Source: Actinomycetota bacterium
Lineage (GTDB): Bacteria > Actinomycetota > Acidimicrobiia > Acidimicrobiales > MedAcidi-G1
Direction of reading: 5' to 3'
NCBI GenBank assembly: GCA_014381745.1
Contig: JACNLA010000024.1
Coordinates: 39,971-89,910, forward strand
Length of the DNA stretch: 49,940 bases
Shown: one piece after another, positions 11,189 through 16,049 of the stretch
Numbering within the stretch: the stretch's first letter is position 1
Layout of the letters: each line of letters starts with the position of its first letter
The notes under the pieces: model-generated
Databases searched by the model: none
What the model was told of the DNA's origin: nothing
Seen by the model: the letters and a program-made list of their open reading frames with translations, nothing else
Program-made: the position numbers and the translations under genes

Positions 11189-12127
11189 ATGAACCAGGGA
11201 CACACACCGGGCAGCGTCCGCAGCACCCATCAGGCGCTACCTGATCCACGCAACGCCACGGTGCAGATCTACATCAACGGTGTCTTTCATCCACGGGCCG
11301 AGGCGAAGGTCTCCGTCTTCGACAGCGGCTTCCTGGTTGGCGACGGGGTCTGGGAGGGCATAAGGCTCCACAACGGGCGCTTTGCCTTCCTCGACCGCCA
11401 CATGGATCGTCTCTTTGCCGGCCTGGCGGCAATCGACCTGAACATCGGCATGACCCGGGATGAGGTCGTTGAGGCCCTCCAGTCGACCGTTGACCAAAAC
11501 GACATGCACGACTCCGTCCATGTGCGCCTGATGGTCACGAGGGGCGACAAGACAACCCCCTCCCAACATCCTGCCAACGTGGTCGGCGGCCCCAACGTGG
11601 TGATCATCGCCGAACACAAGACAGCGGACCCCGCCGTGTCAGACCAGGGGGTCTCGCTGTTCACTGCCACTGTTCGCCGACCGCCGCCCGACACCCTCGA
11701 TCAGCGTCTCAACTCGCACTCCAAGTTGCACGAGGTGATCGCCCTCATCCAGGCCACCAGGGCCGGAGCCGACGAGGCGCTCATGCTGGACCCGACCGGA
11801 GCGGTCGCCACCTGCAACGCCACCAACTTCTTCGTGGTCAGGTCTGGCGAACTCTGGACCTCAACCGGCCACTACAACCTGCACGGCATCACCAGGGCCG
11901 TCGTGCTTGAAGAGGCCGCAGCGGCCGGCATCACCACAAGGGAACAACCATTTTCACTAACCGACGTCTACTCGGCCGACGAAGCCTTCGTCACGGGAAC
12001 GTTCGGAGGCCTCACCCCTGTCTCCGAGGTAGACGGCAGAACCATCGGAACCGAGGTGCGGGGCCCGGTCACCACACGCCTGAACGACCTGTACCTGGCT
12101 GCAGTGGCCACCTCGGTGGCACGGTGA
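11189..12127 (+). CDS. Class IV (branched-chain / D-amino acid type) aminotransferase
   Basis: A 312-residue PLP enzyme of fold type IV. It begins YINGVFHPRAEAKVSVFDSG, VGDGVWEGIR, as in BCAT, D-amino-acid transaminase and aminodeoxychorismate lyase; the Schiff-base lysine is K179 in NSHSKLHEV. The usual glutamate that contacts the PLP pyridine nitrogen (pattern VxE...N(I/L)F) is not there: the sequence reads AVATCNATNFFVV, with Thr208 in its place, so substrate or reaction may differ from BCAT. The stop overlaps the sulfotransferase start (GTGA), so the two are probably one functional pair. Confidence 0.85.
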   Translation: MNQGHTPGSVRSTHQALPDPRNATVQIYINGVFHPRAEAKVSVFDSGFLVGDGVWEGIRLHNGRFAFLDRHMDRLFAGLAAIDLNIGMTRDEVVEALQSTVDQNDMHDSVHVRLMVTRGDKTTPSQHPANVVGGPNVVIIAEHKTADPAVSDQGVSLFTATVRRPPPDTLDQRLNSHSKLHEVIALIQATRAGADEALMLDPTGAVATCNATNFFVVRSGELWTSTGHYNLHGITRAVVLEEAAAAGITTREQPFSLTDVYSADEAFVTGTFGGLTPVSEVDGRTIGTEVRGPVTTRLNDLYLAAVATSVAR

Positions 12128-12843
12128 CCCTCCGTATCAACTGCTGGTCCGGCCCCCGCAACATCTCAACGGCCCTCATGTACTCCTTCAGGGAGCGCTC
12201 GGACACAACCGTCTTCGATGAACCCATCTACGCCCACTACCTGAGGGCAAGCGGCAGACAGCACCCCGGTCGCGACGAGACCATGGCGAGCCAGGACACC
12301 GACGGCAACGCCGTGGTCCGCAACCTGATCCTCGGTACCCACGCCACCCCGGTCGCCTTCTTTAAGATGATGAGCCACCATCTGGTTGATCTGGACACGG
12401 CGTTCCTTAGCGAGTGTCGGAACATCCTCCTGATTCGAGACCCCCGTCACGTGATCCGCTCCCTCAGCGTGAACATCCCCGACGTGAACCTCGGGGATAC
12501 GGGCCTCGAATCCCAGGTCGATCTGCTGGAGTCGATTCTCAGAGAGGGAGGCAGCCCTGTTGTCATCGACTCGGCGATTCTTCTGGCCGACCCACGGCCG
12601 GTCATCGAGAAGATGTGCTCGCTGCTGGAGATCGACTTCGAGGACTCCATGCTGTCGTGGCCTGCCGGTCCAAAGCCCGAAGACGGGACATGGGCGGTCC
12701 ACTGGTACGCAAACGCCCACGCCTCAACCGGATTCCACGCCGGCATTCCCAGCAACGACCCACTCCCGGCCAACCTCGAACACGTTCTGGAGTTGGCACG
12801 GCCCCTCTACAGCAGGCTCCTGGAGCACTCCCTGACCGCCTGA
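12124..12843 (+). CDS. Sulfotransferase-family protein
   Basis: A 239-residue P-loop protein of the sulfotransferase superfamily. The 5'-phosphosulfate loop is INCWSGPRNISTALMYSF (residues about 5-22) and the 3'-phosphate motif is ILLIRDPRHVIRSL, as expected for PAPS-dependent transferases, although some members bind other nucleotides. The GTG start overlaps the aminotransferase stop by 4 nt, which implies coupled synthesis and perhaps consecutive action on one small molecule. The acceptor is unknown. The AhpD-like selenoprotein gene follows 59 nt downstream. Confidence 0.82.
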   Translation: MTLRINCWSGPRNISTALMYSFRERSDTTVFDEPIYAHYLRASGRQHPGRDETMASQDTDGNAVVRNLILGTHATPVAFFKMMSHHLVDLDTAFLSECRNILLIRDPRHVIRSLSVNIPDVNLGDTGLESQVDLLESILREGGSPVVIDSAILLADPRPVIEKMCSLLEIDFEDSMLSWPAGPKPEDGTWAVHWYANAHASTGFHAGIPSNDPLPANLEHVLELARPLYSRLLEHSLTA

Positions 12844-12902
12844 CCAAACCCTCACCACCTGTGGCCGCAACCCGGCCGCCGCCGACGCGCGATACTTCGC
12901 AC

Positions 12903-13466
12903 ATGTCCTGGATAGAGACGGTTCCCGACGACGAATGGTCGGCCAAGGGTGACCTCCTCGCCGACCTCCACAAGAAGGTCGTCGATCCCACACACGGGCG
13001 CGTTGACAACATCATGGCCGTCCACTCCCTCAACCCACGGGGCCTTGCTGCACATCAGAACCTCTACTCCTCGGCGATGGCGGGCACAGCATCCCTTCGT
13101 AAGGTTGAAAGGGAGATGATTGCCCTGGTGGTGAGCCTCGAAAATGAGTGCCACTACTGAGTAACCCATCACCGGCGCGGTCTGCGCCGACTACTCCGGG
13201 ACGACGACCTTGCAGCCGCCATCGAGGCCGACTGGACCACGGCCGACATATCCCCACAGCGCCGGGCGATGCTGGTGATCGCTTCAAAGTTGACCGTCGA
13301 ACCGGGCAAGGTGACCGAAGCAGACATCGACTCGCTCCGCGAGGCCGGGTTCAGCGACCGCGACATCCTCGACATCGTGGAGGTGACCGCCTACTACGCC
13401 TACGTGAACCGCATCGCCGACGGCCTCGGCGTGGGACTCGAGGCCTGGATCCCAGAGGACTCCTGA
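12903..13466 (+). CDS. AhpD-like peroxidase-related selenoprotein (CxxU, UGA-encoded Sec86)
   Basis: Read with UGA at 13158-13160 as selenocysteine, this is one 187-residue protein of the carboxymuconolactone decarboxylase / AhpD superfamily, in the uncharacterized peroxidase-related group. The first part ends EREMIALVVSLENECHY (C83); the codon after Y85 is UGA; the same frame then continues VTHHRRGL... RRAMLVIASKL... GFSDRDILDIVEVTAYYAYVNRIADGLGV to a UGA stop at 13464. The family's redox motif is CxxC followed by xxHH; here it is C-H-Y-U-V-T-H-H, with Sec exactly at the second cysteine. A SECIS hairpin with a GGUCU loop follows. A thiol-peroxidase or reductase role against hydroperoxides is likely. 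Reading it as two fragments or a pseudogene would leave both conserved halves and the hairpin unexplained. Confidence 0.93.
13158..13196 (+). promoter_or_regulatory. Bacterial SECIS element directing UGA recoding
   Basis: Immediately after the in-frame UGA, the mRNA can form an upper stem CGGCGC (13173-13178) with GCGCCG (13184-13189), closing the loop GGUCU (13179-13183). A lower stem GAGUA (13159-13163, including the GA of the UGA) pairs with UACUC (13192-13196). GGUCU is the SelB-binding loop of E. coli fdhF, and the 18 nt between UGA and loop equals, as I recall it, the fdhF spacing. The stem is entirely within the coding sequence, as in bacterial SECIS elements. Confidence 0.9.
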
Positions 13467-13475
13467 GAACCAGTT

Positions 13476-14348
13476 TCAGAGCAGAGTTCCTAAACCCTGT
13501 TGTTCGGCATTGCTGAGCGCCCTCACAGCGGCGGCAATGTCCTGTGAGGCAATTCCAACCGACTTGAAGAGGGTGAATGGCTCATCTGATGGCACGACCC
13601 GCCCGCTGATCAGGTCAGACATGTCGGCATCGGGTTGACGGTTCACCCTCAACAGGTCGCCAGCCTCGACCGCGGCGGCCTCCCGGTCGTCGACAACGAC
13701 GAAAGCCTGTCCGACCACGTCTCCGGGTATTTCAACCATCTCCGGCGTGAAGGCACCGACGGCGTTTAGATGTGTCCCCGGCCGTAGTGACGAGGCGTCG
13801 AACAGAGGAGACCTGGATGGGGTTGCCGTGCTCACCACGTCGGCACGTGCCACAGCCTCGTTGGCATCAAGCACCACCTCACCGCCCACCGCTTCAGCCA
13901 AGGCGTTCGCTGATTCCTCGGTGCGGCTCCAGACCAGCACCTCCCGGATGGGTCTCACCGCCCGGACAGCCGCAACCTGATCGGCAGCCATCGCCCCGGC
14001 ACCCAGCATTGCCAGGACACCGGCGTCGGCTCGTGCCATCTTGTCCGTGGCCAGACCCGGCGCAGCCGCTGTACGGATCGCCGAAAGCGTGGGACCGTCG
14101 ACCAACCCCAGCGGATGGCCCGAATCGTCGAACACGGCGACGATTCCGGCGGGGTCTCCTGGAATCGACGAAACCACCTTTACTCCGGTGTAGGAGTCAA
14201 GACGACCGGGCATGAACAGCGAAACTCCCAGAAGCATCCGGTTCGGTGCCTCACGGTCGCCGACGAAGGCGTCGACCATCGAGTCGATCGCATCTGACAT
14301 TGGCAACGCCAGTCGTACATCGTCCTGATTCAGGTAGCGCATGTTCAT
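13476..14348 (-). CDS. Ornithine cyclodeaminase / mu-crystallin family protein, probable delta1-pyrroline-2-carboxylate reductase
   Basis: A 290-residue NAD(P)-dependent enzyme of the OCD/mu-crystallin family. It shows YTGVKVVSSIPGDPAG, AIRTAAAPGLATD and the dinucleotide-binding VLAMLGAGAMAADQV, followed by VLVWSRT. Family members include ornithine cyclodeaminase, ketimine reductases and the pyrroline-2-carboxylate reductase LhpI. Its ATG overlaps the stop of the aconitase X small subunit (ATGA), which favours the last role: AcnX dehydrates cis-3-hydroxy-L-proline to pyrroline-2-carboxylate and this enzyme reduces it to L-proline. That assignment is from context, not from catalytic residues. 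It ends 9 nt from the convergent selenoprotein stop. Confidence 0.85.
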   Translation of the reverse strand: MNMRYLNQDDVRLALPMSDAIDSMVDAFVGDREAPNRMLLGVSLFMPGRLDSYTGVKVVSSIPGDPAGIVAVFDDSGHPLGLVDGPTLSAIRTAAAPGLATDKMARADAGVLAMLGAGAMAADQVAAVRAVRPIREVLVWSRTEESANALAEAVGGEVVLDANEAVARADVVSTATPSRSPLFDASSLRPGTHLNAVGAFTPEMVEIPGDVVGQAFVVVDDREAAAVEAGDLLRVNRQPDADMSDLISGRVVPSDEPFTLFKSVGIASQDIAAAVRALSNAEQQGLGTLL

Positions 14349-14794
14349 CCTCCGGGTGTGTCGTCGAGACCGTCGCAGGGCCCGGATTGTCGCTTCACAG
14401 AACCATCCTCCCCCACCGTCACATGATCACCCGTCATCAGACCTCGAAAAGTCGCCTCGTCGAGAAGCACCACAGGTATGGAGCGGCCGTACACCTCGGC
14501 TGCGACGATCGCTCCGAGAGACAGGATCTCGTCAGGTTCCAGGGTCAGGATCGCCACCGGTGCCGAGCCGTTTCGTATCGCCTCGAGGAGCACCGAACTG
14601 GAGGAACTGGATCCCCGACCCGAAGCCATGACCAGGACGCGGCCGGCGACCGTGTGTCCTACCTGCGGATGGCGCCTGTCGATGATCTCGCCGGTTGCAG
14701 CATCGACCCCGCCCCAGAAGCTGAGCGGTTCCTGCAGGCTCAGCACCTCACCCGAACCCGTGCCCTCCACGAGCACCCTCGGCCTCTCAGACAT
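14345..14794 (-). CDS. Aconitase X small (swivel) subunit
   Basis: A 149-residue protein matching the AcnX swivelling domain (formerly DUF126): GEVLSLQEPLSFWGGVD, HPQVGHTVAGRVLVMASGRG then SSSSSVLLEAIRNGSAPVAI and a final ILSLGAIVAAEVYG. The SGRGSSSSS stretch is the conserved serine-bearing active-site loop of this domain. It works as the second half of a two-subunit dehydratase with the large subunit, whose stop overlaps this ATG by 8 nt. An upstream in-frame start at 14899 lies inside the large subunit gene and is rejected. Confidence 0.9.
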   Translation of the reverse strand: MSERPRVLVEGTGSGEVLSLQEPLSFWGGVDAATGEIIDRRHPQVGHTVAGRVLVMASGRGSSSSSSVLLEAIRNGSAPVAILTLEPDEILSLGAIVAAEVYGRSIPVVLLDEATFRGLMTGDHVTVGEDGSVKRQSGPCDGLDDTPGG

Positions 14795-16049
14795 CGGCCC
14801 ATACCTGGTTATCAAGCAGCACCCGCCCGGCAATGGCGGAGTCGACGCACTCCGCAGTACCGGCAAAGATGACGTCAACGCCCAGGTTCCCAGGCGCATA
14901 CCAGGCCCACTTTGCCGAATCGGTCATCGCCGTTCCGTCGGTGTCGGCAAGAACTGGAGACATGTAGGTGCAGGTGTCGACAACCAGAGTCACCCCGGCG
15001 GACCGGAGCGCATCTGCCCAACCCCGCAGCTCCAACTCGGCGACGACGGCCCGGCCGGTCGAGACGTACAAGGCCACCTCGGGATGAACGTGTCTTCCCT
15101 CGATGAGCGAGACAAGCGTTCGAAACTCCTCGATGGAGTAGTGGGGTGTGCCCAGGCACACGCTGGCCAGGCCCTTTCCGTTGGCCGTGCAGAGGCTGTC
15201 ACGGGCTGCACGAAGATCGCCGATGCTCACCTCCACGACCTCCGCTGGGGCCCTCCCACCAAGGGCGGCCTCCAGAGTTGGCGCCTCGGGCGTGCTCCCC
15301 ACAGCGTGGAACATCCCAACGCTGCCGGAGGATGCAGCACCAGCCCCGAGCGCCCGCAACCGGTCCTCGCTCTGTCCCGGTGGCAGCCCTTCAATGACCG
15401 GAATGCGGCTGCCGGCGACCGCCCCGACGACTGTGCCGAGCACCGGATACATCTGGTCAAGGTTCATCAGGTCCGGTGGAACATGGCTCATTCCCAACTG
15501 GATCGTTGCGTGGCGGTTCTCGTCGAGGTGCAGACCGGCTGCTGGAACCCGGCCGGTGATGGCAGCGGAGATGTCGATGAGGTCGCCGTAGCGGGCGGTA
15601 CGTGCACCCAGCACAGAGTTGGCGAAGACGATGGCGTTCGACTCGGCCCACGCCACATTCTCGCCAAACGAGGGTCGGTTCTCCAGGTGATAGGGAGCGC
15701 AGGTCCATGTCGGCTGGCAACCCATCTGCTCGTACATCCCGGCCAGACATCTTGCAGAGCGCCCCTGCTCCTCATCTCCACGGAAGAGTTCCGGATGCGC
15801 CAGGTCCATAGAGGCGACGTTCAGGGTGGTGGGCACTGCCACAGAGGCACCGCCGTCGAGGAGACGTCCGGCGAAATCCAACCCCGACTGCCCGTGGTAG
15901 AGGCATGAGTCCACATGGGCGCCGGTGATGTCGAGCAGGCGGCCGACACCCATCGATTCGGCAAGGCGTACGACGATTCGCATGGCCAGTTGGGCAGCAG
16001 GCCCGGCGTCACCCGCCAACCGCTGCCTGTCCTCGGCGCTCAGGTCCAC
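14787..16049 (-). CDS. Aconitase X catalytic (large) subunit, probable cis-3-hydroxy-L-proline dehydratase
   Basis: A 420-residue AcnX catalytic domain (formerly DUF521). Evidence: ITGAHVDSCLYHGQSGLDFA, CQPTWTCAPY, the typical GENVAWAESNAIVFANSVLG then GARTARYGD, and VDTCTYMSP near the end. The cysteines are candidate Fe-S ligands. In bacteria this family dehydrates cis-3-hydroxy-L-proline; in archaea a homologous pair dehydrates phosphomevalonate. The coupled OCD-family gene favours hydroxyproline catabolism. It starts at the ATG at 16049, 63 nt after the GFA gene on the same strand. Confidence 0.9.
   Translation of the reverse strand: MDLSAEDRQRLAGDAGPAAQLAMRIVVRLAESMGVGRLLDITGAHVDSCLYHGQSGLDFAGRLLDGGASVAVPTTLNVASMDLAHPELFRGDEEQGRSARCLAGMYEQMGCQPTWTCAPYHLENRPSFGENVAWAESNAIVFANSVLGARTARYGDLIDISAAITGRVPAAGLHLDENRHATIQLGMSHVPPDLMNLDQMYPVLGTVVGAVAGSRIPVIEGLPPGQSEDRLRALGAGAASSGSVGMFHAVGSTPEAPTLEAALGGRAPAEVVEVSIGDLRAARDSLCTANGKGLASVCLGTPHYSIEEFRTLVSLIEGRHVHPEVALYVSTGRAVVAELELRGWADALRSAGVTLVVDTCTYMSPVLADTDGTAMTDSAKWAWYAPGNLGVDVIFAGTAECVDSAIAGRVLLDNQVWADV

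Follow-up and report, generated by a model that had tools for sequence, protein, structure and literature searches.

A probable selenocysteine-containing AhpD-fold enzyme of marine Acidimicrobiales, with a GGUCU hairpin following its in-frame UGA

Selenoproteins that resemble AhpD and carry a CxxU redox motif have been found in ocean DNA before. An 'AhpD-like protein' of this kind is reported from the Sargasso Sea in 2005 (PMC1088965), 'AhpD-like 1' (COG2128) is listed with 299 sequences in the Global Ocean Sampling (GOS) data (PMC2398784), and TIGR01926 has a CxxU entry in a 2026 review (PMC13188914). The original prediction for the locus described here had named marine metagenomes as the source of such proteins, and the Sargasso Sea and GOS listings agree (PMC1088965, PMC2398784). 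Other members of the fold contain cysteine instead. In PA0269 and in Mycobacterium tuberculosis AhpD a proton relay is formed by Glu36/Cys48/Cys51/His55 and Glu118/Cys130/Cys133/His137, respectively; the peroxidase activity of PA0269 is weak, and M. tuberculosis AhpD acts as an adaptor for AhpC (PMC3141380). In Deinococcus radiodurans DR1765, a homologue of the same fold, the CxxC motif is required for full resistance to H2O2 (PMC8945050).

Here, we analyse a gene within a 49,940-nucleotide stretch of DNA (the window) from a draft genome of 2.19 Mb that is 95.9% complete. We read it as encoding a selenocysteine-containing AhpD-fold thiol peroxidase or reductase, with selenocysteine (Sec) inserted through SelB at a hairpin 3′ of the UGA, and give this reading a probability of roughly 0.88. 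That the in-frame UGA is recoded as Sec is nearly certain. Conservation of the recoding site, the Sec machinery, the hairpin, the fold and the equivalence of active-site residues are established by computation. Because the type is already known from ocean DNA, the novelty of this gene is limited. A literature search pairing selenocysteine with Acidimicrobi- returned nothing on this subject by title or abstract, within its partial coverage.

The readthrough product and its active site

Translated with readthrough, the gene is a single frame of 187 residues that starts with the ATG at 12903, passes an in-frame UGA at 13158 and closes with a UGA stop at 13464. The proposal that one gene had been split by the UGA into two apparent reading frames is thus borne out. 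Its features are as follows.

12903..13466, + strand: coding sequence of an AhpD-fold 'peroxidase-related' selenoprotein (TIGR01926 / CMD), 187 aa, from profile and structure matches
13113..13115, + strand: Glu71, equivalent to the proton-relay Glu of AhpD; invariant, 12 residues before the first Cys
13149..13160, + strand: redox motif C83-H-Y-U86; in 49 sequences, C83, H84 and Y85 do not vary and position 86 hardly does
13158..13160, + strand: selenocysteine UGA codon (U86); 80 of 81 orthologues have UGA here, and 9 of 10 homologues without it have Cys
13170..13172, + strand: His90, equivalent to the proton-relay His of AhpD; invariant, 4 residues after position 86
13464-13466, + strand: terminal UGA stop, from translation

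The readthrough protein belongs to TIGR01926, 'peroxidase-related enzyme' (147.2 bits against a cut-off of 81.8), in a match that spans residues 26-177 and so flanks the UGA on both sides; Pfam CMD is matched as well. It falls below the cut-offs of two other profiles, classical AhpD TIGR00777 (14.1 bits, cut-off 191.95) and NF041238 AhpD_rel_CFYUT (42.9 bits, cut-off 175). The solved relatives 3c1l, 2pfx, 2prr, 2oyo and 6k40 align across the UGA site at 28-35% identity, with Cys at the UGA position in both of the alignments shown. An AlphaFold2 model of the 187-residue protein, with Sec modelled as Cys, has a pLDDT of 94, and its fold matches 2pfx, 2prr, 3c1l, 6k40 and 2oyo from end to end (Z 23, 1.9-2.2 A).

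The UGA of the window gene falls on the second Cys position of CxxC, in the context C83-H-Y-U86-V-T-H-H. Its placement at the second-Cys site of the family motif had been predicted, and alignment with the Cys homologues confirms it. The same prediction gave the motif as CxxC-xxHH. The CxxC portion stands, but the double His does not hold for the family: Cys homologues mostly read CxYCxxAH, so that the pair of His residues is specific to this clade. The AhpD active site, Glu-(11)-Cys-x-x-Cys-(3)-His, is present as Glu71/Cys83/Sec86/His90, with Sec replacing the second Cys. Across the orthologue alignments these four positions are invariant, save for one Leu at position 86.

From these equivalences we infer the chemistry, substrate and electron donor of the enzyme. 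In the folded protein, Glu71, Cys83, Sec86 and His90 would stand in for the proton-relay residues of AhpD. Sec86, standing where the second Cys stands, would attack the hydroperoxide and become a selenenic acid, which Cys83 would resolve to a selenenylsulfide; a cellular dithiol or lipoyl donor could then reduce the latter. Sec86 is the likely attacking residue and Cys83 the likely resolving one. Since the peroxidase activity of PA0269 is weak, the true substrate of the window enzyme may differ.

It is possible, at clearly lower odds, that the gene encodes a genuine selenoprotein with another reaction, for example reductive dehalogenation, as in Bmp8, a debrominase of the AhpD fold, or, in an adaptor role, the reduction of a protein disulfide or a peroxiredoxin. 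Bmp8 is among the structural neighbours of the model (Z 18.9, 2.8 A, 175 aligned), M. tuberculosis AhpD in its service to AhpC is a precedent for an adaptor (PMC3141380), and no peroxidase partner was recognised among those neighbouring genes that were named. However, the nearest folds and sequences are peroxidase-related proteins (Z 23, 28-35% identity), and DR1765, which is one of them, contributes to H2O2 resistance by way of its CxxC (PMC8945050). The thiol peroxidase/reductase reading is the one we prefer.

Recoding of the UGA

A lone in-frame stop usually signals a broken gene, and the assembly is a draft, so that a Cys codon (TGC or TGT) mutated or misread as TGA has to be weighed. We compiled 81 orthologous genes, namely the window gene and 80 loci taken from genomes of GTDB species. 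In 80 of the 81 the Sec codon is TGA, and in one it is TTA (Leu). In place of re-sequencing, the same codon was read in the 80 homologous genes outside the window, 79 of which have TGA. In comparisons with orthologues of the same genus, dN lies near 0.13 and dS mostly around 0.4-1.5 on either side of the UGA; dN far below dS on the 3′ side implies that the part following the UGA is selected as protein. Together with the covarying hairpin described below, purifying selection after the UGA and an identical TGA in 80 of 81 orthologous genes make a pseudogene or sequencing error very improbable, and we reject it. The exceptional gene, from the MAG Dive96_bin3.271 (L117:3706-3708), keeps the SECIS loop; its TTA reflects either an error in sequencing or a recent loss of Sec.

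The UGA form is also widespread. Among 100 related genomes searched, 45 of the 48 from the same family have a close match, all 45 in the UGA form. Across a larger sample of 296 genomes from the phylum, all matches at E <= 1e-30 carry the UGA; nine of the ten such matches outside the window were read, and in these nine the UGA lies within a C-x-Y-U motif. Extra TGA or TAG codons in some search rows are ordinary C-terminal stops. UGA-free homologues within the order are more distant, and Cys stands at position 86 in 9 of 10 of them, as it does in the PDB relatives shown, which is what had been anticipated for homologues without the UGA. Named relatives belong to the Acidimicrobiia/Acidimicrobiales and include many marine MAGs, for example MedAcidi-G1 and MedAcidi-G3.

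Directly 3′ of the UGA lies a hairpin.

13173..13189, + strand: bacterial SECIS hairpin CGGCGC-GGUCU-GCGCCG, from folding, covariation and codon constraint
13179..13183, + strand: GGUCU apical loop of the SECIS, invariant in 81 of 81 orthologues

The distance from UGA to apical loop is 18 nt, and the hairpin alone folds at -10.7 kcal/mol. It agrees with the bSECIS constraints given in a recent review, which are a loop of 3-9 nt that begins with G, a stem of 4-16 bp, a spacing of 16-37 nt and an MFE at or below -7.5 (PMC13188914 Fig. 2A). In single-sequence folding, the region by itself does not exceed shuffled sequence in stability (z -0.49), and an Rfam scan of it gave chance matches only and no SECIS family. 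As single-sequence folding is unremarkable, the case for the hairpin rests on covariation, codon constraint, conservation and position. Over the 81 genes, stem pairing is kept in 94.9% of cells and double changes occur in 4 of 6 pairs; none of 500 shuffles reached the covariation score of the stem, and sliding the partners lowers it. The loop Gly codon is GGT in 81 of 81 genes, which are related and hence not 81 independent trials, whereas at other positions of these genes GGT accounts for 109 of 822 Gly codons. In a relative of 42% identity (L161), an identical GGUCU loop at an equal distance from the UGA is carried by an unrelated stem, GGAGAA/UUCUCC.

The loop and its distance from the UGA probably also match those of the SECIS of Escherichia coli fdhF, which differs in its longer stem and in its host gene. 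The search for a bacterial SECIS suggested at the outset has thus yielded one, with covariation in addition. Since the gene's own stop is also UGA, it had been thought that only context tells recoding apart from termination; this needs correction, in that the distinction is made by a specific RNA hairpin directly 3′ of the recoded UGA. When its own genome was scanned with a covariance model of this SECIS, no other clear site emerged (best others E ~3-4), indicating that other selenoproteins of the genome use other SECIS sequences. The family has a more distant UGA branch (L140, L141, L143, L144, L145, L160), which in some genomes occurs beside the first. No GGUCU loop was seen after the UGA in these six, so another SECIS sequence must be used there.

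All four sel genes, whose presence had been proposed as a check, are found in the same genome: selA (394.5 bits, C16:45680), selB directly after it (C16:46851), selC, a tRNA-Sec with a UCA anticodon (67.5 bits, C16:32864), and selD (368 bits, C8:12185). Within the family, selA scores above the cut-off in 45 of 48 genomes, and it is present in all six genomes from other families of the order that carry the UGA form. It was not found in two gene-bearing relatives, both incomplete (85% and 69% complete). selD has an in-frame UGA of its own at the active site (...HGAGUGCK), and a second TGA ends its frame (L050:3186-4382); judging from its sequence, SelD of this genome is a candidate selenoprotein itself.

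In the decoding we envisage, SelB with Sec-tRNA-Sec would bind the hairpin (GGCGC-GGUCU-GCGCC) as the UGA at 13158 is read, Sec would be inserted there instead of termination, and the later UGA at 13464 would end the protein. UGA conservation, the sel genes and the SECIS support recoding, as predicted for a functional selenoprotein in an actinobacterium; that the product is functional, and that Sec is actually inserted at U86, we infer from sequence. A reassigned UGA or unspecific readthrough, inserting for example Trp, would equally account for a conserved readthrough product, but it has a negligible chance and is rejected: of the 25 long ORFs in the window that were treated as genes, 24 end in TGA, the selenoprotein gene too stops at UGA, a tRNA-Trp has the anticodon CCA, and the tRNA with UCA is tRNA-Sec.

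Genomic surroundings and comparison with known systems

Upstream of the ATG, inspection of the sequence reveals one further element.

12891..12896, + strand: possible -10 box GATACT, 6 nt upstream of the start codon

Relatives have GAGACT or GATAGT at about this place, and GATACT is possibly the -10 box of a leaderless transcript. Just upstream, on the same strand as the selenoprotein gene, are genes for a class IV aminotransferase and a Sulfotransfer_5 protein (11189-12843, 4 bp overlap). Downstream, on the opposite strand (13476-16049), lie a gene of the ornithine cyclodeaminase/pyrroline-2-carboxylate reductase type and then split aconitase X genes, which are related to cis-3-hydroxy-L-proline dehydratase. 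The sulfotransferase and aminotransferase are upstream in 11 of 80 loci and aconitase X is nearby in 26 of 80. As neither set of neighbours is general, we claim no operon function.

Elsewhere in the window genome there is a second AhpD-type selenoprotein, the 'CFYUT' protein NF041238 (286.6 bits, one in-frame TGA; L131, G000:C22:323934-324923), which the 2026 review equates with the Sargasso Sea 'hypothetical protein 1' (PMC13188914). Like the window protein, it is a CxxU selenoprotein with an AhpD-type core; unlike it, it has about 360 residues and forms a separate family. Its gene is found in 28 of the 48 family genomes, always with TGA. In 11 of 80 loci (L076, L087, L090, L091, L092, L095, L097, L100, L119, L120, L121) it stands head-to-head with the orthologue of the window gene, 65-71 bp apart, which suggests that the pair shares one promoter region and is under shared regulation in that clade. 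It is conceivable, but we think it unlikely, that the TIGR01926 CxxU and NF041238 CFYU proteins of marine Acidimicrobiales form one selenium-dependent pathway that almost never reverts to Cys. If so, the two might act, for example, in sequential reduction of peroxides or halogenated compounds, with divergent transcription in some lineages.

An annotation that ends genes at UGA would show fragments at the window gene and in dozens of its relatives. The SECIS is compact and covaries strongly, and the Sec and Cys forms make up a set ready for comparisons that ask why Sec is kept.

The Cys peroxidase-related AhpD-like proteins (3c1l, 2pfx, 2prr, 2oyo and 6k40/DR1765) share the full-length fold and Glu-Cys-x-x-Cys-His with the window protein, and differ in having Cys where it has Sec and in being only 28-35% identical. 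The relay residues of PA0269 and M. tuberculosis AhpD are spaced like Glu71/Cys83/Sec86/His90; the window protein has a Tyr, like PA0269, where M. tuberculosis AhpD has His132. The published marine AhpD-like CxxU selenoproteins, in the portions of those accounts available, have the family model TIGR01926, the motif, the Sec position and a bacterial SECIS in common with the window gene, whereas there the form is not tied to Acidimicrobiales, to a fixed GGUCU element or to a pairing with NF041238. What is added here is the host lineage, marine Acidimicrobiales, the near-universal retention of Sec and the head-to-head arrangement with NF041238 in 11 relatives. Marine CxxU AhpD-like selenoproteins, known from metagenome reads, thereby gain a defined host lineage that keeps Sec almost without exception.
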